Shown here one piece after another: positions 1,287 to 29,749 of a stretch of 32,584 nt of DNA. Positions within the stretch are counted from its first letter, which is position 1. Every line of letters begins with the position of its first letter. The translations under genes and the position numbers were made by a program. Location of the stretch: NCBI GenBank assembly GCA_016194445.1, contig JACQBP010000029.1, positions 1 to 32,584 on the forward strand. The letters are read 5' to 3'. The stretch is from Candidatus Liptonbacteria bacterium (GTDB taxonomy: Bacteria > Patescibacteriota > Minisyncoccia > UBA6257 > 2-01-FULL-56-20). A model generated the notes under the pieces. It saw only the letters and a program-made list of their open reading frames with translations, was not told where the DNA came from and did no database searches.

Positions 1287-1347
1287 GGAACCGCTTAATG
1301 AGTTTCGAGTTTAGCGGTTCCGTCACTCAGCAAATTTGATTTGCTGA
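1287..1347 (+). other. Two consecutive hairpins in the leader of the PBP gene
   Basis: GGAACCGCT(1287-1295)/AGCGGTTCC(1313-1321), 9 bp; TCAGCAAAT-TTG-ATTTGCTGA (1327-1347), 9 bp. Confidence 0.6.
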
Positions 1348-1367
1348 AGTACATTCATTATTTTGAT

Positions 1368-3497
1368 ATGCCAACAATTACAATTTCCCGAATAAAAACA
1401 TCGCGGATCGTTATCGTACTTCTGCTCCTGTTTCTTGTTTATGGAGCTGTTTATCCTCTTAATGCCGAACTTAAATCTTTTTATGCCAAACAATTCTCAC
1501 CGGTTATCGTTGATCGCAACGGTGAGCGGATTAGTCTAAACCCTAACTATCGAGGATACTACGCAGAGGATGTGAACCAAGTGCCGGAAAATTTTAAAGA
1601 GCTTTTAATCAAAAAAGAAGATCGATTTTTCTACTACCACCTCGGAATAAACCCGTTTAGTGTTTTTCGGGATGGCCTCCAAGCTCTCCTTTCTTGGAAG
1701 TTGCGCGGTTCGAGCACCCTTACGCAACAACTGGTAAAAAATCTCCTCGGAAATGAGAACCGAAGGACTGTCAAAAATAAAATCATTGAAGCGCTCTATA
1801 CCTTGGCGCTCGAACTCTATACATCCAAAGATCAAATTTTGAAGATGTACGCAAACACGGTTTATTTCGGCAACCAAATGCAAGGCGTTAAGGAAGCAAG
1901 TTTATATTACTACGGCCGAACCCCGGAAGCCCTCGCAAAAACGCAAACCTTGGAACTTCTAGCAGCACTCAATAATCCATCGGCTCGCTACCCCGGGGCG
2001 AAGAAAAACGAAGAATTTACCGCCATACTTGCTGATAAATTCGGTATCGATACGTATGGAGAGATAGAAAAAACGCAACCGCGAGAAAATCTGGCGCCGT
2101 ACACCAGAAAAACTAATCCTTCGTTTGAAGTTGGGACGCTCAACACTTCCTGTGAAGATAAATGTGCACTCACTATTGATGCCTCGCTCACTGAGACGCT
2201 ACGCAATATACTTCAAACCAATCTTAAATCAGCAGCCTTTCGGGGTGTTGATAATGGTGCAATTGTGGTCATCAAACTTTCACCGGATTCGAGTGAAAAT
2301 GAACTCTTGGCAGTTGTTGGTACACCAGATCCATCGGCCAATTATCAAGGTAAACAGATTAATATGGCCTTAAAGGCCAGACCGATCGGCTCAACGGCAA
2401 AACCCTTCATTTATGCCAAGGCTTTTGAAAAAGGGGCTCGACCTTATACGTTGGTTGATGATCGTGAATATAAATATAAGATCGGAACTGGTTTTTATCT
2501 TTATCCCAAAAACTTTGATGGCAAATATCGTGGGATCGTCACGCTCCACCAAGCTCTTTCGAATAGTTTAAATGTGCCGACCGTCAAAACTCTTGACTTT
2601 GTGGGTGTGGATGACTTTAACAACTTTCTACAGAATACGCTGCAGTTTTATCCGCGTCAAAAACTTGAGAATTACGAACTTGGCATTGCCTTAGGGGGCC
2701 TCGAAATGGATCTCCTTACTCTTTCGCATTATTTTACGATATTTCCAAATGAGGGAATTTTAAAACCCTTGAAGATTGCAGATGCACCTCGCGTAACATA
2801 TCTTCAACCACCCATGACAACAGCCCTAACCACTGCTCCCAAAAAGGTGGTGGATGCGAAATTTATAAAGTTGGTCAATAAAATCCTCTCCGATCGAGTA
2901 ACCGGAGTAGATCAATTCGGCCTCAAAAGTAATCTCAATCTTACTCAATCAAATTATGCTGTAAAAACTGGCACAACGTATAACTTCCATGATTCCTGGG
3001 CCATCGGCTACACCCCAGATTTTTTGGTCGGCGTCTGGGTTGGCAATAGTTCCAACCAACCCATCCGGCAAATCACGGGCCAGCAAGGAGCGGGAAAAAT
3101 TTGGCATGACGCAATGGAATTCCTACTTAATTCTCCTTACAACAAGAAAAGCGAATTTAACTTTGACGGACTTAAAGAATTTGATACGGGGGGAACATTA
3201 GACTGTGGCTTACCGAACGACCATTATCAATCCGTCCGAAACCTGATCGAGGACAATGGTTTAATTTTAGAACCCCACAACGGTGATGTGTTTGCGGTGG
3301 AGTCGGGTGCGACTGTCCCTCTCCACTCTCGCGAAGAAGCAAATTGGTACATTGATGGTAAATTTTTAGACGCCGGAGATGATCTTTCTTGGCCACCGGC
3401 AATCGGCGTTCACCAAATCCTAGCCGAAACCAAAAACGGTAAAAAAGAAAAAGTGGAGATAGAAATTACTAAAGATGATACAACGGGAACTCCTTAA
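1368..3497 (+). CDS. pbpC: Penicillin-binding protein 1C-like bifunctional transglycosylase/transpeptidase
   Basis: N-terminal TM; GT51 region (SSTLTQQLVKNLLG, ...MYANTVYFGNQMQGVKEAS); transpeptidase STAKPF, SNSLN, KTGT motifs; C-terminal BiPBP_C-like domain. The ORF track starts at 1341; the ATG at 1368 (MPTITISR) is likely the real start. Confidence 0.88.
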   Translation: MPTITISRIKTSRIVIVLLLLFLVYGAVYPLNAELKSFYAKQFSPVIVDRNGERISLNPNYRGYYAEDVNQVPENFKELLIKKEDRFFYYHLGINPFSVFRDGLQALLSWKLRGSSTLTQQLVKNLLGNENRRTVKNKIIEALYTLALELYTSKDQILKMYANTVYFGNQMQGVKEASLYYYGRTPEALAKTQTLELLAALNNPSARYPGAKKNEEFTAILADKFGIDTYGEIEKTQPRENLAPYTRKTNPSFEVGTLNTSCEDKCALTIDASLTETLRNILQTNLKSAAFRGVDNGAIVVIKLSPDSSENELLAVVGTPDPSANYQGKQINMALKARPIGSTAKPFIYAKAFEKGARPYTLVDDREYKYKIGTGFYLYPKNFDGKYRGIVTLHQALSNSLNVPTVKTLDFVGVDDFNNFLQNTLQFYPRQKLENYELGIALGGLEMDLLTLSHYFTIFPNEGILKPLKIADAPRVTYLQPPMTTALTTAPKKVVDAKFIKLVNKILSDRVTGVDQFGLKSNLNLTQSNYAVKTGTTYNFHDSWAIGYTPDFLVGVWVGNSSNQPIRQITGQQGAGKIWHDAMEFLLNSPYNKKSEFNFDGLKEFDTGGTLDCGLPNDHYQSVRNLIEDNGLILEPHNGDVFAVESGATVPLHSREEANWYIDGKFLDAGDDLSWPPAIGVHQILAETKNGKKEKVEIEITKDDTTGTP

Positions 3498-3511: not shown

Positions 3512-6500
3512 TTACTTCGCCACATCCACGGTGAAATATTCCCCTCCCGTGCGGCCGAAATTCTCAGGGAAATAAAGTTCGCTTACAACTGCCGGAAGGT
3601 GATTGTAAATTCCCGGAATTAACGCGCGCACAAAATAGTCATATTCATAAACGCCAGGACTAATCCGTTCCTTAAAAAGGAAAAGGCGATCATCGTGTGA
3701 CTCTTCGGCGTCAGGGTTGAATTGTATGTTTGGCGTTAAGGATCCTTCTTCCCCGCCGCTCGAGAGGGTCGGCGGGGGTGAAACAACACTCGAAGTTGCC
3801 ACTCCTTTTTGTTTCGGAACGCCTAAGCCTAAGAATGACCCCAGTGATCCATAAATTGAACTTATGAAAGATTCCGGACCTTTTATTCGTTCAATTCCAC
3901 CTTCGTATCCTCCATCATAATTATTTGATTTTGGTTGAAGCGACTTATCCTCGATGGCGAGTTTAAAATTCACAATTTCCATTCCGGCTGGAATAAAATC
4001 TTCGATGGTCACAAAATTTCTCGACTCGGGAACGGTAACCACAAGATGGCCTCGCAATACATCGCCCTGATTGGCGCTATGGACTGGGTTTTTCATGTCC
4101 GTATCGTCCAATCGATAAAACGAGCGCTCTACCGAAAAACCTTCATCTCGAGAAGGAATTTGATTGACCGGCAAATAATACCTCAAATCCATATCGTAGT
4201 AGAAACCGTTCGGCAAATTATTTTTATTCTGCTTTTGGAATGAAAGAGCATCGATAGAGTTAAGATGAAAATCAGTGATAGATACGAATTGCGAGAAAGT
4301 ATCGAAAATTGTTGAAGAGTTAAAGTCGAACGAACCAATTTGTTTGTTGCCCATGCTAAACGCTAAGTTAAATTGAGATTTTGTTTCTTGCTTCCAATTC
4401 AGGAAATCGGTAAAGGCATCTACCACAGAAACCGTATTGTTGGTTGACCCCCATGCGCCGTCTTTGGTGCGACTCCGGGTAATCCAGCGAATGATTTTAT
4501 CAAGTGCTGGACTCGCTCGCCTATCAGCTACGTAGGCTTTCAGAAAAAGCGCTGTGTCTTTTATCGGTGTCTCATAGTATTCATAAAGCAAATTGCCGTT
4601 ACGCGTCCCGAGATGTGAACCGCGAGAATCAACGATCAAGCGATTTTCTAGACTCTGAAACGCTGCCTCTTTCGAACTTTGCGGATAGCCATGGGTCATT
4701 ACCATGGCAAGGTATGCAAGACTCTCCGAGGAAATATCTTCCTCGAGAAATTTTTTATCGTCAACAAGCGCCAGAATTTTATTCTTGATTAAAGCGTTGT
4801 TTTGGTACTGCGAAAGTTGAGAAAAGGTGTAGGCCGAGAGTATGACTAAATCTTTATTTTGATAAATTCGATAGTCAGTAGAAAGAGCATTAAAGAGGTA
4901 TTGAGCCGCGCGATTGATAACTTGATCATCAACGCTATACCCCGCGTTCTTTACTTCAATGAGGGCATTGAGCACATCTAAAGTCAAATAATAGTTGGGT
5001 TGAAGATCGGCATAGTAAGCAATGCCCCCGCTTGGTGTTTGGTTTTGATATATTCGACTCAATCCCAATTGAACCACCTGATCAACGCTATATTTTTGAC
5101 CCTCGAATTCAATTTGCGGTAAATTGAATTTGTCGCCTATGTTTTCAATATTCAAGCCTCGTTTCACAATCGCGATCGAACTCAACTTACTTGCAATCTG
5201 CTCACTGCAGCCATAAGGATACGCGAAAAGATATTGAAGAGCATCCGACAAAAATACCGCAAGCGTTGCGCTTATCTTGACATTCAATCCCCCGCGGTCT
5301 TTCACAATTGTGTCCGGCAAAGCCACATATTCATTCGCGTTATTGTCAGTGGTGTAGTTCGCGGTCGCCACCGTTTCATAGGTTTGGTTTCTAGTGATAG
5401 GTATCGAATCCTCCACTATATCCTCGTAACCCCGGTTTTTTGCCGAGAGCGCAAAGGCGTGGCTACCGTCCTCAATGTTTTGGGGAGCAACCACCGGGAA
5501 ATAGGCGGTATAGGTATCATGAGGCTTAATCGAAATATCATAAGACATCCGGTCTTTGCTTTGGAGTGATTTGCTTGCAAAAGAAAGCGTCAGAGTCTGT
5601 TCGTTATCCGTCTGATTGAAAACTTTAGCTCCAATATTGAAATCATCTCCTGGAATAATAAATCTCGGGCGGAGCGGCACAATCATCACGTCTTTTTGAG
5701 CAATAAATTCTTTATATCCTACTCCGAGTTTAGTATCTTTTGTGATACCCACTGCTTCCGCTTGCCAGGTAGTAAGATTGTCCGGCAATGTAAATGTTAC
5801 CTCGGCGTGGCCCGAATCATCCGTTTGCACTGTTCCCCTCCAAAACGCGGTATCTTTAAACTCTCCCCTTTTCTTTCTCGCTAGCTCTTCAGAAGATTCG
5901 GCTCCTCCGCCGCTTCCCCCCTTCGTGCCGGCAGGAATTTCGGCTTCATAGAGAATGTTTTTTATATTCGATGCTGTCACAACCGTGAGCGGCAAACCAC
6001 CGTAGAAAAACACCACTGGGTTCTTCTTGGGGTTTCCTTTTAGCGCCAGAACACTTAAGTCCGCAACTGTAAGAGAAAGCTCTGCGCCAACTGGCTGATT
6101 TTGAAAATTGTGTGTCTGTATCGCGAGCTTAACTTTTTCTCCGGGAAGGTATCGAGTTTTATCGGTAGAAATATCGACGCCAAGCTCAACGTTTTTCGTA
6201 TTCACTTGATATGCGATCTGACCATATTTAACATCTGGTCGCGATGAGAGAAGAATGGCGGAGAAATACACGTTAGGCACATAACTATCCTTCACCGTGA
6301 AGGTGTAGTTGTAGAGGTTACCAATGATATCAACAACTTCATGATCAAAAACACTCCCCCGCTCGAGAGTAATGAGAGCTTTAGCTTTCGGGAAAGGAGA
6401 TTTGATAACCACGTTTATTTTATCACCTACGCTTACCGTTTGCTTATCCGTTGCTAGATCTAGCGCCTCATTGTTTGTTGGTCTCACGGTTACCTCACCG

Positions 6501-9500
6501 GAACCATATACATAAAAATCTTGTTCCGCAGTTATCTGATTACCTCTCCCGTCCGTCCCCAGAACTGAAAACTCATATTCTCCCTCCTTATCCACCGAAA
6601 AATCCTGGCTCGCATTGCCGTCTCTATCGGTGTTGAAAGTGATATTTTTTATCAATTCGAGTTTCTTTTCGGTTTTATAATAATAAGCGCCGTCTACCTC
6701 TCGACGTTTGGAGTATTCCCACTTGACCCGATTAATTTGAGCGGCAATATTCGATACCGATCTAGCCTTACCTTGTGTATCAATCGATTTTATTCGAGCG
6801 TTAAATTTATCATTCTTGCCGAAAAAAGTTTTATCCAAACTAACACCCAAATAATATTCTCCCCGATGAACAATAAAGGACTTCTGCGTAGAAACGGATT
6901 GGCCATTTGAATTTTTAACCGTGACATTGACGACAAGAATTTTACTTTGTTTTACCTCATCGGTTTTGAAAAGTTTTTTAAAATCAAGGTCTTGTGTAAT
7001 CGCCGCTCGTCCATCCTTAGAAAGTCCCGTGGTGCCGCGCGTAATAAATTTATCTCCGTAACCTCCATAATACGAATCATACCAGCCACTCCCAAAGTTA
7101 AAATAACCGTCATGGTAACGATCGAAATAATAATCCTGACTCGTAATCTCGTATGTTACTTCACCGCCTTCGACCGGCACGCCGAAAAAGTAATTCGCAT
7201 TAACAGTCATTTTCGCGGTATCCCCAGCAACGTACTCGTCCTTATCCGAAATGGCGTCAACCTTAAATGGTGCGCCGACATACTCTTCGACATCGAATAA
7301 ACCGTAGCCGCCGCGGGCGCGGATGATGTATGTTCCAAGCGGCGCCTTAGCGTCTAACACGAAGTGTGTCGTGAACGTCCCAAAATCACTTATGAGTACG
7401 CTCTCTTTATAAACTGATTCGCCTTTACTGTTTGTGACTATAACGTCTGTTTTTCGTCCTGCTAACGTTTCGTAGTCGCCGTCATAACCAACCCGGTCGA
7501 GTCCTTTTACAAATACTTCTTGGTTAGGGCGGTAGATTGGCCTGTCGGTGTAGATATACACTCGCTCGGCTGAATGAGCGGGTGAGGCGTATTGAAACAA
7601 GTCGGTATTTTCGGAGACAATGGCAGAATCATCGCCGGCTGTGACTATCGCGCCCTTTATATAAGGAAACACGTTACCCTTTGCAATGCCTTGCGCATCC
7701 GTGAGCACCGTTTCCACTTTCTGTAGTGAACCGCTATCGTTATTATCACCGCTAAAAACATCCACTTCTACCCCCGAAACAGGATCCATGGATCCAAACT
7801 GAGTCACCCAATACAAATTTTGTGGTGCGCTTGAGAGGGCTTTCCTGACTATCTCTGAATTTTTATCGTAGCTCTCGCCGCCGCGCCATTCCACTTGTTT
7901 CTCCTGTATGGCGAGATTGGTAACCGTCATCAAGGTTTTGTCATAAACCATTTCGTTTTCCGTCCTCACTTCTCTTTGCTGCGCTGCGTTCCAAGTCCAA
8001 CTCACCCTGCGGTAGTCGGGATTGCTAAAGGTTAAAATGTAGTGCCCTAAAGGATTAGGAAAGTAATCTTTCAGGTTGATTTGGAAGTAATTCCGCGTCC
8101 AATATCGATCTGGCAAATTAATCCTTTTATCGATCGTTTTTATACATTTCAAACTTGACGGCGGGATGGTCGAATCCGGCATTTTTGTAAGATAACGAAA
8201 CATTTGAACTGCCGTCACTTCACAAATGTCCATATCCATAAAGGACAAATTTTCAGTCGAGTAGGTCAGTTTGGTTCTCTCGGGAGAGGTAACGTTGTAA
8301 TCTTTTTGAGATTTATAGAAATTTCTCGACTCCTCCGGCGCTTTACCGGTTTGAAAATCAAGCGCCTGGTCAGCTGTCTGCGCAAAACCGTCTACGACAT
8401 GAAGATTAACGTGTATGGCCTGTTCTGGTGCCAACCCTATCGTTATGGAATTTTCAAATTCGCCAATGGCGCAGGGCGACTGTGACCCGGGCGCCACCCG
8501 ATATGGCTGGTACCAGCTCCATTTGCCGGTTAGTAAATTAGTTTGAAAGCGCGCAGAGAAATTTTCTTCGGTCGCGGGCTGTAGCGGCGTATTAGTGCAA
8601 AGTTTAATGCTGGTCGGATCAACTCCCCTCGCCGCATTGGCTGGTACCGTCTTCGTAATCTTGAGTTTCGGAAAAACTTTGGCGGTTTTTACAATCTTTT
8701 CAGGATTAAGCCGTAAGCCATCTCTATTAACAATCTCTTTAAACTCAACCTGAATCTCCTCACTTGGGGTAAAAGAATCTGGCGCAAAAAAAAGAGATAA
8801 CTGCTTGTAATCGGTAACCTTTTCGCATTCATTCCCAGAATAAATGACATACCCCTGATCATCCTTCTTGCAAGTCTCGCCGTACTCGACTCGCAAAAGA
8901 TGCGGTCCGGAAATATTGCTTTTATCTTTATCGATCGGCTCGACAAATGTAAACGAAAGTTTTCCCTGCGGATCAAAAAGGTCGGGAGTAACATTAGCAC
9001 TCCGAGGCGATTCCGCGCTCATACCGCTGATAATTGGCTCAACCCTAAACGCTCCGCTTTGCTGTAATTCGAGATTAATATCGCCTCGGAGAGGATACGC
9101 TCCGTGAACTCGGAATATGTAGTCAGTATTAAAATCCCAAACTTTCTCCCGGCCAAATCTGTCATGGGCCGCATACACCTCAAGAATGCTTTTATCCGTC
9201 CCTTGTGATTGAACATTCCCGTTTTCATCCCGCGTTATCCTCGTTCCGTAAGTTACCTCAAGCGCCACGGCCCCGCCTTGACGGTTCGATACCGTAATTT
9301 CTTTTTTTGTTCTTTCGAGATCTACTTGCTGATTGAAAAAGACACGCAGTGGTTGGTTAGAAAGCAACTCCCCTGTCAACTCCCCCGCCGCTACATTTTG
9401 GTATCGTAAGGGCCGCGTGATAAATGAATGGGTTGTTTCCGGGACAGAAAGTCCCTCGACGGACACGAATCCTGGTTTGATATGCAATGTATAATGTGAT

Positions 9501-10234
9501 GATGGGTCTAAGCTTGTTTCGGGGATAAACTGAAGATTTCTTGTGCTGATCCACTTAAATTTGCCAGGTGTTTTCGGAGAAATCTCAACCAGCTTTCCCG
9601 TATCCCAAGAAAAGGCGTCAAGAACTGTAATCGGCACCATCGGCCGGTTGAACACAATCGTGATCTTCGAAAATTCATTCGCTTCGCTATCTTTTGCTGG
9701 AAATATACTGACTATTTTCGGATCTTCATCAATAAAAAAATCTTTGCTAAGTTTCGCGTTGTTTGTCTTGAGCGTAACGGTATAATACTTGCCGAGTTCA
9801 AGCTTTTGGTTTGGATGGAAAACTAACTCGCTGCTATTTGGTGCTGCCACCCAATCCCCGGCAATCGCCGGTTCAAAAGTAACCTTCCCGGCCGCTTCTG
9901 CCGTGGCAACGCCTTTGGGCAAGTGCAGAACAATCGAGGCGTCTTGAGATATTTTATCGGCCACGAGTACATAAGGTTCAATATAATTATTAACCCCGAA
10001 AAATCTGGCAGGTAGATGGCCAAACTTAAAATAACCTAATATTAATACAAGAATTATAAAACCAGCCACCAAAATAATCCTTCTCTTAAAGGAAGAAAAA
10101 AAATGTGGACTTTTACCACCGAACTCTGGTGTGGCGGGCGAAGGCAGGTTCTCTGTTTTTACTTCAAGCCCCAAGTTCGGTTGGGGCTCTTGATTGGGTT
10201 GTGGTAAAACTGGCTCGGGATTAGGCAAATCCAT
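3512..10234 (-). CDS. Alpha-2-macroglobulin family protein, membrane anchored (2240 aa)
   Basis: Single N-terminal TM helix; Ig-like/MG domains; VYIYTDRPIYRPNQEVFVKG; thioester-type motif YPYGCSEQ (CSEQ codons at 5198-5209) followed by an alpha-rich TED-like region. Confidence 0.9.
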   Translation of the reverse strand: MDLPNPEPVLPQPNQEPQPNLGLEVKTENLPSPATPEFGGKSPHFFSSFKRRIILVAGFIILVLILGYFKFGHLPARFFGVNNYIEPYVLVADKISQDASIVLHLPKGVATAEAAGKVTFEPAIAGDWVAAPNSSELVFHPNQKLELGKYYTVTLKTNNAKLSKDFFIDEDPKIVSIFPAKDSEANEFSKITIVFNRPMVPITVLDAFSWDTGKLVEISPKTPGKFKWISTRNLQFIPETSLDPSSHYTLHIKPGFVSVEGLSVPETTHSFITRPLRYQNVAAGELTGELLSNQPLRVFFNQQVDLERTKKEITVSNRQGGAVALEVTYGTRITRDENGNVQSQGTDKSILEVYAAHDRFGREKVWDFNTDYIFRVHGAYPLRGDINLELQQSGAFRVEPIISGMSAESPRSANVTPDLFDPQGKLSFTFVEPIDKDKSNISGPHLLRVEYGETCKKDDQGYVIYSGNECEKVTDYKQLSLFFAPDSFTPSEEIQVEFKEIVNRDGLRLNPEKIVKTAKVFPKLKITKTVPANAARGVDPTSIKLCTNTPLQPATEENFSARFQTNLLTGKWSWYQPYRVAPGSQSPCAIGEFENSITIGLAPEQAIHVNLHVVDGFAQTADQALDFQTGKAPEESRNFYKSQKDYNVTSPERTKLTYSTENLSFMDMDICEVTAVQMFRYLTKMPDSTIPPSSLKCIKTIDKRINLPDRYWTRNYFQINLKDYFPNPLGHYILTFSNPDYRRVSWTWNAAQQREVRTENEMVYDKTLMTVTNLAIQEKQVEWRGGESYDKNSEIVRKALSSAPQNLYWVTQFGSMDPVSGVEVDVFSGDNNDSGSLQKVETVLTDAQGIAKGNVFPYIKGAIVTAGDDSAIVSENTDLFQYASPAHSAERVYIYTDRPIYRPNQEVFVKGLDRVGYDGDYETLAGRKTDVIVTNSKGESVYKESVLISDFGTFTTHFVLDAKAPLGTYIIRARGGYGLFDVEEYVGAPFKVDAISDKDEYVAGDTAKMTVNANYFFGVPVEGGEVTYEITSQDYYFDRYHDGYFNFGSGWYDSYYGGYGDKFITRGTTGLSKDGRAAITQDLDFKKLFKTDEVKQSKILVVNVTVKNSNGQSVSTQKSFIVHRGEYYLGVSLDKTFFGKNDKFNARIKSIDTQGKARSVSNIAAQINRVKWEYSKRREVDGAYYYKTEKKLELIKNITFNTDRDGNASQDFSVDKEGEYEFSVLGTDGRGNQITAEQDFYVYGSGEVTVRPTNNEALDLATDKQTVSVGDKINVVIKSPFPKAKALITLERGSVFDHEVVDIIGNLYNYTFTVKDSYVPNVYFSAILLSSRPDVKYGQIAYQVNTKNVELGVDISTDKTRYLPGEKVKLAIQTHNFQNQPVGAELSLTVADLSVLALKGNPKKNPVVFFYGGLPLTVVTASNIKNILYEAEIPAGTKGGSGGGAESSEELARKKRGEFKDTAFWRGTVQTDDSGHAEVTFTLPDNLTTWQAEAVGITKDTKLGVGYKEFIAQKDVMIVPLRPRFIIPGDDFNIGAKVFNQTDNEQTLTLSFASKSLQSKDRMSYDISIKPHDTYTAYFPVVAPQNIEDGSHAFALSAKNRGYEDIVEDSIPITRNQTYETVATANYTTDNNANEYVALPDTIVKDRGGLNVKISATLAVFLSDALQYLFAYPYGCSEQIASKLSSIAIVKRGLNIENIGDKFNLPQIEFEGQKYSVDQVVQLGLSRIYQNQTPSGGIAYYADLQPNYYLTLDVLNALIEVKNAGYSVDDQVINRAAQYLFNALSTDYRIYQNKDLVILSAYTFSQLSQYQNNALIKNKILALVDDKKFLEEDISSESLAYLAMVMTHGYPQSSKEAAFQSLENRLIVDSRGSHLGTRNGNLLYEYYETPIKDTALFLKAYVADRRASPALDKIIRWITRSRTKDGAWGSTNNTVSVVDAFTDFLNWKQETKSQFNLAFSMGNKQIGSFDFNSSTIFDTFSQFVSITDFHLNSIDALSFQKQNKNNLPNGFYYDMDLRYYLPVNQIPSRDEGFSVERSFYRLDDTDMKNPVHSANQGDVLRGHLVVTVPESRNFVTIEDFIPAGMEIVNFKLAIEDKSLQPKSNNYDGGYEGGIERIKGPESFISSIYGSLGSFLGLGVPKQKGVATSSVVSPPPTLSSGGEEGSLTPNIQFNPDAEESHDDRLFLFKERISPGVYEYDYFVRALIPGIYNHLPAVVSELYFPENFGRTGGEYFTVDVAK

Positions 10235-17747: not shown

Positions 17748-19379
17748 TTAACTCACTCGGCGTTTGGCTACCTTTCTTTCGTTTTCCGTTAGATACATTT
17801 TTCGAATGCGAACGCTCTTCGGCGTTACCTCCACCATCTCATCGTCGCCGATATACGCAAGCGCGTCTTCCAAAGTTAGCTCGAGCGGCACTTCCAGTTG
17901 ATCGGCCAGTCCTTCATTTTTCGCGCGGAAATTGTTGAGTTGTTTGGTCTTGCAAACATTCACCCCAATGTCCCCCGCTTTCGCGTTTTGCCCCACCACC
18001 ATCCCTTCGTAAATCTGCACCCCGTCCCCAATAAAAAGTTTGCCTCTCCCTTGCGCTCCGACCAGTCCGTAGTTATTTGAAACTCCCGTTTCAACCGCCA
18101 CAAGTGATCCGTGTGTCGTGAGTCCAATCTCGCCCTTATATTCCTCGTAACCTAAAAAAATGCTGTTCATAATAGCAGTGCCCTTAGTATTAGTCAAAAA
18201 ATCTCCCCGCGAACCGATGAGTGCTCGCATCGGCGCCACAAAATCCATATACACGTGTGCCTGATCCACGTGCATATCTTTCATCGTCGCGGCCCGCTTG
18301 CCCATCATTTCAATAATAACCCCCGAATACTTCTCCGGCGCTTCGATGGATGTGAGCTCCATCGGCTCCATTTTTTTATTGTTGATTTCTTTAAAAATCA
18401 CCTGCGGCTTCGAAACTTCAATCTCGTAACCCTCCCGCCTCATTTTTTCAATCAAAATGGCCAAATGAAGTTCTCCTCTTCCGGCTAAAACCCACCGATC
18501 GGCCGCCTCGGTTGAAATAATTTTGAGCGCCACATCATGGTCGGCTCATCAATCTCAATAATTGGCAGAGCCACTGGATTTTTTGCATCCGCAATCGTCT
18601 CGCCGATTGAAATGTCCGGAATCCCAGCCACCGCCAAAATGTCTCCCGGAGAAACTTCTTCGACATCTACCCGGCTCAACCCTTCGAAAATCATGATTGA
18701 ACTTATTTCTCCTTTTTTCACTTCGCCCGCGCGATTAATGTGGGCCACCTGCATCCCTCTCTTTAAAGTGCCTGAATACAGCCGTCCCACCGCCAACTTT
18801 CCTTTATAGTTATCGTAAGTCAGGTTTACGGTGAGCATCTGCAGCGGTTTTGTTTCGTCAATCGTGGGCGCCGAAAAATAGCTGACAATCTTTTCAAAAA
18901 TCGGCTCGATATTTACTCACCCCGAGCTCCAGGAATAAATCATACATGGCGTTTAAAACCCACTCCGGCCGCGCGTGCGGTTTGTCGATTTTATTAATCA
19001 CCAAAATAATTTTATGCCCGGCTTGTATGGCTTTTCTAAGCACAAACTTAGTCTGCGGCATCGGCCCCTCTTTGGCGTCCACCAATATCAAAACCCCGTC
19101 CACCATCCTCATAATCCGCTCCACCTCGCCGCCAAAATCCGCGTGGCCAGGCGTGTCCACGATATTGATTTTATAATCCTTGTAATGAATCGAAGCGTTT
19201 TTAGAAAAAATCGTAATTCCCCGCTCTCTTTCAAGATCGTTCGAATCCATAATGAGTTCCTTCAAACCGTCGGACTTAATTTTAAAATTTTCCGACTGCT
19301 TCAAAAGCGCATCAACCAGTGTGGTCTTGCCGTGGTCAACGTGCGCGATTATAGCGATGTTACGAAGTTCTTGTTTCAT
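17748..19379 (-). pseudogene. typA: Ribosome-associated GTPase TypA/BipA, interrupted by two internal deletions with frameshifts (or assembly errors)
   Basis: Three consecutive ORFs match successive parts of TypA: 18894-19388 ([17 protein letters not shown]...), 18485-18838 plus in-frame upstream codons ([16 protein letters not shown]...EIDEPTM) and 17748-18533 (DVALKIISTEAADRWVLAGRGELHL...). The expected sequence at both junctions is missing. Confidence 0.88.
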
Positions 19380-19393
19380 ATTTAGCAACTTGG

Positions 19394-27042: not shown

Positions 27043-28050
27043 TTATCTCTTATTAAGCAATGTTCTTTTATACGTATCCAAATGGCTAAGTATCATTCCC
27101 GTTCCTTTCGCCACGCAAAAGTAAGGATCTTCAGCCACATAAGCTTGCACGCCCAAAAACCTTTCGAAAAACTCCGGTAAATAATGTAGTTGGGAACTGC
27201 CGCCCGAAAGGATGATTCCCTTCTCCATCACATCCGCCACCAACTCCGGCGGCGTCTCGTTAAAAACTTTTTGCACGGCTTTAGCCACATCAATCAAATG
27301 CCCGTTCAAAGCCTCGGCAATCTCGTTGCTTGAAATCGAAATGTCTCTGGGCAATCCCGACGCCAAATCGCGGCCTCGGATTGCATACTCCATTTTTTCT
27401 TTAGTCGGCAACGCCGCCCCAATCTTGATCTTTACCGCCTCCGCCGTCTGCTCGCCAATCGCCAGTCCGTATTTCTTCTTCACGTAATCCGAAATCGCCT
27501 GGTCAAATTTATTCCCCGCTACTCGCAAACTGACCCAAGACACGATTCCACCTAAGGCAATCACGGCTACCTCCGAAGTTCCCCCGCCCATATTCACAAT
27601 CATGCTCCCTGACCGCGCGTTAATGGGAATCCCAGCGCCCAGTGCCGCCAAGACCGGCTCTTTTACAATGTAGACGCTGTGCGCTCCCGCCTCTCGTCCG
27701 GCATTAATCACCGCCCGCCGCTCCGTCTGCGTAATTCCCGCTGGCACCGAAATCACCACGTCCGGTTTAAAAACATCGAACCAATTCACCGCTTTAGAGA
27801 CAAAATACTTCAGCATCGCCTTCGTGATGTAATAATCCGCAATCACCCCATCCTTAAGCGGCCGGTAAGCCACGATCTCCTCCGGCGTCCGCCCAATCAT
27901 CTCCTTCGCCTCCACCCCCACCGCCAAAACAGAATTCTCCGGCTTGGTGAGTGCCACAATCGTGGGTTCATTGATAATGAACCCCTTCCCAGGCACAAAA
28001 ACAATAGTGTTGGCCGTTCCTAAATCAATGCCAATTTTACGCGTGAACAT
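27043..28050 (-). CDS. mreB: Rod shape-determining protein MreB
   Basis: IGIDLGTANTIVFVPGKGFIINEPTIVAL...; actin-fold phosphate motifs; VKEPVLAALGAGIPI; GIILSGGSSQLHYLPEF. Confidence 0.95.
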   Translation of the reverse strand: MFTRKIGIDLGTANTIVFVPGKGFIINEPTIVALTKPENSVLAVGVEAKEMIGRTPEEIVAYRPLKDGVIADYYITKAMLKYFVSKAVNWFDVFKPDVVISVPAGITQTERRAVINAGREAGAHSVYIVKEPVLAALGAGIPINARSGSMIVNMGGGTSEVAVIALGGIVSWVSLRVAGNKFDQAISDYVKKKYGLAIGEQTAEAVKIKIGAALPTKEKMEYAIRGRDLASGLPRDISISSNEIAEALNGHLIDVAKAVQKVFNETPPELVADVMEKGIILSGGSSQLHYLPEFFERFLGVQAYVAEDPYFCVAKGTGMILSHLDTYKRTLLNKR

Positions 28051-28153: not shown

Positions 28154-28182
28154 TTGAAAAAACATATCATATATGATATAAA
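28154..28182 (+). promoter_or_regulatory. Sigma70-type promoter with a perfect 16-bp palindrome in the spacer/-10
   Basis: TTGAAA (28154-28159), 17-nt spacer, TATAAA (28177-28182); palindrome ATATCATATATGATAT at 28164-28179; ATG at 28189. Confidence 0.65.
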
Positions 28183-28188
28183 CATCCC

Positions 28189-29709
28189 ATGACGAGTGGC
28201 TTAAGCTACGTAAAAAGAATTGGCAAGTTTATCGTCGAACTCCGCGAACAAGCCGGCTTAACTCAAGCCGACCTGGCGGAAAGTTTGAGCACCTCGCAAA
28301 GCGCCGTCGCTCGCATGGAAAAGGGCGAGCAAAACTTTTCAACCGAGATGCTTTCCAAAATCAGCAAAGTTTTGAATCGCGAAATCATCACGCTTTCGAC
28401 CGGCGCCATCAATTTTAAAATCGAAGGCGGCTACAAACTCGAAGGGATAATCACCACCAACACTTCTAAAAATTCCGCCGTCTCCTTACTCTGTGCCTCG
28501 CTTTTAAACAAAGGCAAAACCGTACTCAAAGGTATGCCTAAAATCGAAGAAGTCTTTCGCGTTATTGAGGTTCTGGAAAGTCTCGGTGCCTCCATGAAAT
28601 GGGACGAAAACGACGTCGAAATCACACCGCCAAAAAATATCGGCACCGAAAAAATCAACATCGAGTCTTTCGTAAAAACTAGGAGCGCCCTGATGCTTCT
28701 GGGGCCGCTTGCTCATTTATTATCTAAATTTTCACTTCCCCACCCCGGCGGCTGCGAACTTGGCCGCCGAACCGTCCGACCTCATCTTTACGCTTTAGAA
28801 AAATTAGGCGTCAAAATCAAAACCACCAAAACGCAATATGAAATTGATGTTAAAAAATTAAAGCCCGCCGAAATCGTTCTCTATGAATCCGGCGACACGG
28901 TGACTGAAAACGTTTTAATGGCCGCCGCGAAAATCCCCGGCCAAACGGTCATCAAATTTGCCTCGGCCAATTACCAAGTTCAAGATCTCTGTCACTTCTT
29001 GCAATTGCTCGGCGTCAAAATCGAAGGCATCGGCACCACCACCCTTGTCGTCCAAGGCGTTGCAGACATAAATCAAAATGTGGAGTTTTATCCGAGCGAA
29101 GACCCCATCGAATCTATGCTCTTTCTTTCGATCGCCGCCACTACCGGTTCAAGCTTAACCATCGAACGTTGTCCCATCGATTTCCTAGAGCTCGAACTTT
29201 TAAAACTCGAAAAGATGGGTTTTAAATTCAAACTCTCCAAAGTTTATAAATCGAAAAATGGCCACACCAAATTAGTCGATATCAAAACTCTTCCATCCAA
29301 ACTCGTCGCCCTCGAAGAAAAAATCTACGCCCGCCCTTTCCCAGGTTTAAACATCGACAACCTCCCCTTCTTCGTGCCCATTGCCACCCAAAGTCGAGGC
29401 CAAACCCTCATCCACGACTGGGTCTACGAAAACCGCGCCATCTATTATATGGAACTCAACAAATTAAATGCCGACATCATCCTCGCTGACCCCCACCGCG
29501 TTTTTATTAACGGCCCCTCCGAACTCAAACCCGCCGAAGTTGTCTGCCCGCCCGCCCTCCGTCCCGCTGTCATCATTTTAATCGCCATGCTCGCCGCTAA
29601 AGGCACTTCTATTTTGCGAAACGTCTACTCCATCAACCGCGGCTACGAAGACCTTGTGAACCGCTTAAACAAACTCGGTGCCAAAATTAAAATTCTTAAA
29701 GGAATTTGA
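28189..29709 (+). CDS. murA: XRE-family HTH fused to UDP-N-acetylglucosamine 1-carboxyvinyltransferase (MurA-like)
   Basis: N-term IGKFIVELREQAGLTQADLAESLSTSQSAVARMEKGEQNFSTEMLSKISKVLNRE (HTH_3); then EPT-fold MurA with KNSAVSLL, PGGCELGRR (catalytic-loop Cys), repeated inside-out barrel segments. Confidence 0.88.
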   Translation: MTSGLSYVKRIGKFIVELREQAGLTQADLAESLSTSQSAVARMEKGEQNFSTEMLSKISKVLNREIITLSTGAINFKIEGGYKLEGIITTNTSKNSAVSLLCASLLNKGKTVLKGMPKIEEVFRVIEVLESLGASMKWDENDVEITPPKNIGTEKINIESFVKTRSALMLLGPLAHLLSKFSLPHPGGCELGRRTVRPHLYALEKLGVKIKTTKTQYEIDVKKLKPAEIVLYESGDTVTENVLMAAAKIPGQTVIKFASANYQVQDLCHFLQLLGVKIEGIGTTTLVVQGVADINQNVEFYPSEDPIESMLFLSIAATTGSSLTIERCPIDFLELELLKLEKMGFKFKLSKVYKSKNGHTKLVDIKTLPSKLVALEEKIYARPFPGLNIDNLPFFVPIATQSRGQTLIHDWVYENRAIYYMELNKLNADIILADPHRVFINGPSELKPAEVVCPPALRPAVIILIAMLAAKGTSILRNVYSINRGYEDLVNRLNKLGAKIKILKGI

Positions 29710-29749
29710 TCACTACATTATCTACGCGATCGCGTAGATAATGTAGTGA
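29710..29749. other. Perfect 40-bp palindrome immediately after the HTH-MurA stop codon
   Basis: TCACTACATTATCTACGCGATCGCGTAGATAATGTAGTGA is its own reverse complement; no U-tract follows. Confidence 0.95.

Follow-up and report, generated by a model that had tools for sequence, protein, structure and literature searches.

The 32,584-nucleotide stretch of DNA analysed here (the window) carries a reading frame in which an XRE-type DNA-binding domain is fused to the N-terminus of MurA, the UDP-GlcNAc enolpyruvyl transferase that performs the committed step of peptidoglycan synthesis and is the classic target of fosfomycin. The promoter of this gene, hereafter HTH-MurA, holds a palindrome that we propose as its operator. 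The features of the locus are as follows.

27043 to 28050, minus strand: mreB, divergent from murA and 139 nt from the murA start (profile match)
28154 to 28159, plus strand: -35-like hexamer TTGAAA, read from the letters; TTG is enriched at the same place in homologues
28163 to 28180, no strand: operator CATATCATATATGATATA, the proposed HTH-MurA dimer site, with a perfect 16-bp palindrome at 28164-28179 (letters and conservation)
28177 to 28182, plus strand: -10-like hexamer TATAAA, overlapping the 3' end of the operator (letters)
28189 to 29709, plus strand: the HTH-MurA fusion gene, 506 aa, with an ATG start; sole EPSP-synthase-family gene of its genome
28216 to 28389, plus strand: XRE/HTH_3 DNA-binding domain, aa 10-67 (profile match)
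28297 to 28320, plus strand: recognition helix, aa 37-44 (QSAVARME), with Ser36, which covaries with operator position 5, directly before it (model and alignment)
28411 to 29697, plus strand: MurA (enolpyruvyl transferase) domain, aa 75-503 (profile and structure matches)
28753 to 28755, plus strand: codon of Cys189, equivalent to the catalytic Cys115 of E. coli MurA (alignment)

The union of an XRE domain and MurA in one ORF, which the earlier note had described, is borne out by profile matches above cut-off for both parts: residues 17-66 match HTH_3 with 52.6 bits (cut-off 23) and residues 79-493 match EPSP_synthase with 164 bits (cut-off 22.8). With an in-frame stop 15 nt upstream, no start other than the ATG at 28189 is plausible near the promoter. 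The AlphaFold2 model (mean pLDDT 88, pTM 0.81) places the HTH helices at residues 3-21, 26-32, 37-44 and 52-62 and leaves a linker at about residues 67-71 poorly defined (pLDDT below 50), and the structures that match it best in Foldseek are those of MurA, with a TM score of about 0.9 by target length. HTH_3 is present in 46 of 48 aligned family members, and orthologues carry it in the same ORF as the enzyme, separate encoding being an outcome named beforehand as one that would speak against the fusion. The fusion was detected in 44 of 380 phylum-sampled Patescibacteria genomes, 10 of 286 class-sampled genomes and 8 of 150 order-sampled genomes (matches below 1e-15, frames of about 505-530 aa), samples that overlap and include the window's own genome, and it is also present in named Nomurabacteria, Taylorbacteria and Colwellbacteria. 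On the tree the fusion proteins form a single clade, joined to ordinary MurA by a long stem, and two members lacking the HTH (L007 and L080) nest within it. A contig with HTH-MurA (L076) in a 4.8-Mb record named delta proteobacterium (G083) nests inside the Nomurabacteria and is probably bin contamination.

At the window locus, TTGAAA and TATAAA are separated by 17 nt and the ATG begins 6 nt past the -10, with no Shine-Dalgarno visible; this arrangement and the perfect 16-bp palindrome within it stand in the sequence just as they had first been reported. The palindrome occurs once in the window at up to three mismatches, against 0.09 occurrences expected, an observation that is only suggestive when taken alone. 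The TTGAAA/TATAAA pair was not among the listings of a generic promoter scan of the window, and the -35/-10 assignment therefore rests on the layout conserved in homologues. In these, an 18-bp palindrome with the consensus TAT[A/C]TCA-TATATGA[T/G]ATA lies between the -35 and -10 of the murA promoter, within a spacer of normal length (16-17 nt). Among 90 fusion loci with at least 230 nt of upstream sequence, each compared with 200 dinucleotide shuffles, 81 have the site within 230 nt upstream, a result reached by 0 of 200 shuffles, and the conservation of the palindrome in homologous promoters thus goes far beyond chance. Its recurrence upstream of orthologues was the second point on which the earlier note had agreed in advance to be judged. 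Columns of the palindrome are 66-100% conserved, and the flanks are not, save for traces of the -35 and -10. Three of the clear misses have an explanation: for L070 the upstream sequence spans just 277 nt, the start of L064 is misplaced and this locus in fact possesses the site, and L075 has its operator 617 nt upstream, relocated to the head of a two-gene operon in which a phosphatase-like gene precedes murA.

Most fusion genomes contain one operator site genome-wide, and 40 relatives without the fusion yielded one near match in total (1 of 40 genomes). Genome scans of the two HTH-less members found no site within two mismatches in G052 (L080) and none better than three mismatches in G029 (L007), though this joint loss of HTH and operator is weaker evidence because one deletion could take both adjacent pieces. 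The ATG most often follows the 18-mer after 10-11 nt, and in 50 of 83 cases this distance is no more than 14 nt, with a Shine-Dalgarno-like motif in none of those 50. About a third of homologues have longer leaders, among which a missing Shine-Dalgarno also occurs, so that the leaderless layout claimed for the window, considered as a layout, is common to most homologues and not universal; the short spacing fits transcription beginning at the ATG or beside it. In group f122, members L162, L164, L165 and L167-L170 present two operator-like sites upstream, near -105 and -45, in what looks like a tandem arrangement.

The fused protein and the operator covary at a defined position of the recognition helix. 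Position 36, directly before the helix, is its N-cap, and in four proteins of the TTQ/STQ type (L073, L155, L157 and L159) it is Thr in place of Ser. A TATAGC half-site accompanies all four of these Thr36 proteins and none of the 71 others (75 loci, no exceptions), and occupies both sides of the operator in three of the four. By arithmetic on these counts, the chance of such a match is 1 in 1,215,450 when relatedness is ignored; on the tree, residue 36 and the half-site each change three times, in step, and with just three independent changes a sign test on the covariation cannot reach 0.05. All 20 QSS[IV]P helices are paired with at least one TATCTC half, which 10 other proteins also have, and matched changes in both halves preserve the two-fold symmetry of the operator. 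Together with the conserved operator, this covariation supports the autoregulation through the palindrome that had been suggested from the window sequence.

In relatives, the operator also appears ahead of other genes of the pathway. In 20 loci, mostly of Nomurabacteria, murA and murB are divergent and have the operator in the region between them. In a genome of another class (G650, L206) murB is non-adjacent, and a separate site precedes its start by 9 nt. A second perfect site in G051 (L119) stands ahead of a murC-like ligase that scores 228 bits to murC, below the cut-off of 335, and in G040, the genome of the Thr36 protein L073, the variant TATAGC operator recurs exactly ahead of efp followed by glmS (L118). 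The window genome's own murB (L141) has no operator site. As for mreB, it is placed divergently next to murA only within the window's genus and in a few other cases, at distances of 92-742 nt (e.g., 139, 231 and 659), and the recurrent divergent partner of murA elsewhere is murB; adjacency is all that speaks for mreB as a possible second target of HTH-MurA. We set aside a broad regulon in the window genome, whose other two sites (L125 and L126), with two mismatches each, are found ahead of an ArsR-like gene or inside a coding sequence; sites this weak occur near the level of the reversed-pattern control. Further second sites with one or two mismatches (L121-L124, L127-L130, L132-L134, L137, L139, L205 and L207) are located at genes that are unrelated or of unclear relation, and we regard them as chance matches or leave them unassigned; Rfam found nothing but tRNAs, near three of the scanned second sites with one or two mismatches. 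The site L138 probably represents the promoter of murA in L040, divided over two contigs. A one-mismatch operator-like site lies in the vicinity of rplE in three genomes (L134:1494, L135:1495 and L121:1504), and that of L135 precedes a laccase-domain gene, possibly PgeF-like.

We propose that HTH-MurA serves the cell as its functional MurA and carries a fused XRE repressor domain at the N-terminus. A dimer of the protein would bind the palindrome that separates the -35 from the -10 in the leaderless murA promoter, and by blocking RNA polymerase there MurA would set its own level. In relatives, it would likewise repress murB and occasionally the murC-like ligase and efp-glmS. Autoregulation of murA by this enzyme-repressor fusion appears highly likely, and the protein very probably controls both its own gene and its pathway; dimeric binding, repression and catalytic activity are features that we infer from sequence. 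The occupancy or conformation of the active site, with UDP-GlcNAc, PEP or the downstream product UDP-MurNAc, would most likely alter the affinity for DNA and may thereby link transcription to precursor demand, the ligand signal itself being speculative. In its fullest form, this describes a metabolite-gated trigger enzyme with a remodelled pocket, whose occupancy would switch the protein between synthesis of the first precursor and repression of murA and murB, joined in some lineages by glmS and the murC-like gene. We give this form close to an even chance; if true, it would represent a one-protein control loop for cell-wall synthesis in Patescibacteria.

Autoregulation might instead proceed with no sensing of metabolites, as simple negative feedback on MurA abundance in which catalysis and DNA binding are independent. 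This sub-case of our best explanation, from which only the ligand step differs, is a serious possibility that we place somewhat below an even chance. Most genomes have a single operator, as it would predict, and the low pLDDT of the linker means that the HTH and MurA domains may be loosely coupled. However, the second sites at murB, efp-glmS and the murC-like gene suggest pathway control beyond enzyme amount, and the UDP pocket has been remodelled specifically and uniformly.

The details of this remodelling bear on whether HTH-MurA is an enzyme at all. The catalytic residues K22, N23, R91, C115, R120, D305, E329, R331, R371 and R397 (E. coli numbering) are invariant in 61 family sequences, and the alignment upholds the earlier observation that the Cys115 and Arg120 positions are kept. 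Across the fusion family, S162-V163-G164, which like P121 belongs to the UDP-binding residues of MurA, is uniformly replaced by G-[D/E]-T, P121 by T or S, and D369 by Pro; ordinary MurAs of the same taxonomic family retain S162, V163, P121 and D369, with Asp at 115 in most of them. Substrate or activity could therefore differ. The window protein passes the NCBIfam subfamily model NF006873 (334.6 bits, cut-off 297) and scores below the murA equivalog cut-off of TIGR01072 (323.7 against 392.7 bits), as do two relatives (306.5 and 302.2 bits). HTH-MurA is the only EPSP-synthase-family gene in the window's 99%-complete genome, and all 13 relatives checked (11 with the fusion, 2 without the HTH) likewise have a sole gene of this family; a search of the window genome and these relatives for a second, HTH-free murA found none. 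MurB was found in 9 of 10 genomes tested. The suggestion that the protein might be a sensor paralogue is thus unsupported, as HTH-MurA is the sole MurA-type gene. With its catalytic residues invariant, a single copy and MurB present, yet a uniformly changed UDP pocket, HTH-MurA is probably enzymatically active with a distinct pocket. A MurA domain that has lost catalysis and acts as a pure, BzdR-like sensor would accord with the altered UDP-binding residues, the loss of D369, the score under the equivalog cut-off and the long stem to ordinary MurA. We consider this unlikely, given that the core catalytic residues are all kept, that 14 genomes have no other EPSP-synthase-family gene while most have MurB, which needs the product of MurA, and that the enzyme part is retained in members that have lost the HTH.

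Concerning the direction of control, an operator that occupies the spacer as far as the -10 suggests steric repression of the kind known from XRE repressors. Regulators of the MerR type activate from the promoter spacer, and activation of murA by the HTH would have this precedent, but it is similarly improbable here: the site extends into the -10 and adjoins the -35, and at 16-17 nt the spacer is of normal length, so no distortion of the DNA is needed. Repression is favoured because the spacer is both normal and occluded. That the palindrome is just a conserved part of the core promoter, or is bound by another regulator while the HTH acts elsewhere, is very improbable: it overlaps the -10 and fills the spacer, and promoter constraint could therefore explain part of its conservation, but its symmetry is kept by matched changes in both halves, it covaries with the fused recognition helix, and it is absent from HTH-less members and non-fusion relatives.

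Enzyme-repressor fusions such as BirA, PutA and NadR (trigger enzymes) are of a known kind and, like HTH-MurA, combine a metabolic enzyme with a DNA-binding domain that controls genes of its own pathway; HTH-MurA would match them in having both domains in one chain and candidate sites at the murA, murB, murC-like and efp-glmS promoters, and differs in its enzyme, its class of DNA-binding domain and its pathway, that of the cell wall. It shares its fold and catalytic residues with MurA, from which the fused XRE domain, the remodelled UDP pocket and the lost D369 set it apart. An HTH_3 match above the gathering score and a palindromic operator overlapping the murA promoter are in keeping with XRE/Cro-C1 repressors. 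BzdR (NCBIfam NF006015) likewise joins an XRE domain to a metabolic-enzyme fold, but its second domain, which is shikimate-kinase-like, differs in fold from MurA and serves as a sensor and not as an enzyme; HTH-MurA scores 27.5 bits to this model, through the HTH part alone, against a cut-off of 204. The nearest NCBIfam HTH model is that of the HipB/Y4mF-type XRE antitoxins (TIGR03070; 42.8 bits, below the cut-off of 71.65), which repress their own promoters at palindromes; HTH-MurA has no toxin partner and is fused to an enzyme instead. Our search of the open literature returned no description of the HTH-MurA fusion, its operator or its regulon, and an enzyme-repressor fusion on the committed step of peptidoglycan synthesis appears, from the papers searched, to be new. 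Little is understood of how cell-wall synthesis is adjusted in bacteria whose genomes are very small and poor in regulators. In the present case the enzyme of the committed step, which fosfomycin targets, seems to act as its own transcription factor; if so, peptidoglycan synthesis joins the pathways served by enzyme-repressor fusions. As the operator is defined to 18 bp and both a specificity residue and a small regulon are predicted, binding, gating and regulon are directly testable on one purified protein.

Some further observations concern other parts of the window. Right after the murA stop lies a 40-bp perfect inverted repeat (29710-29749; TCACTACATTATCTACGCGA and its complement), a strong hairpin (-30.6 kcal/mol with flanks) with no T run, in whose place relatives have other hairpins or none. 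By eye, a TypA/BipA-like GTPase at 17748-19388 (minus strand) looks split over three ORFs in different frames, which suggests frameshifts, either real or assembly errors. Also by eye, a 2240-aa protein encoded at 3512-10234 (minus strand) resembles alpha-2-macroglobulin, and its gene is adjoined by a penicillin-binding-protein-like gene at 1341-3497.
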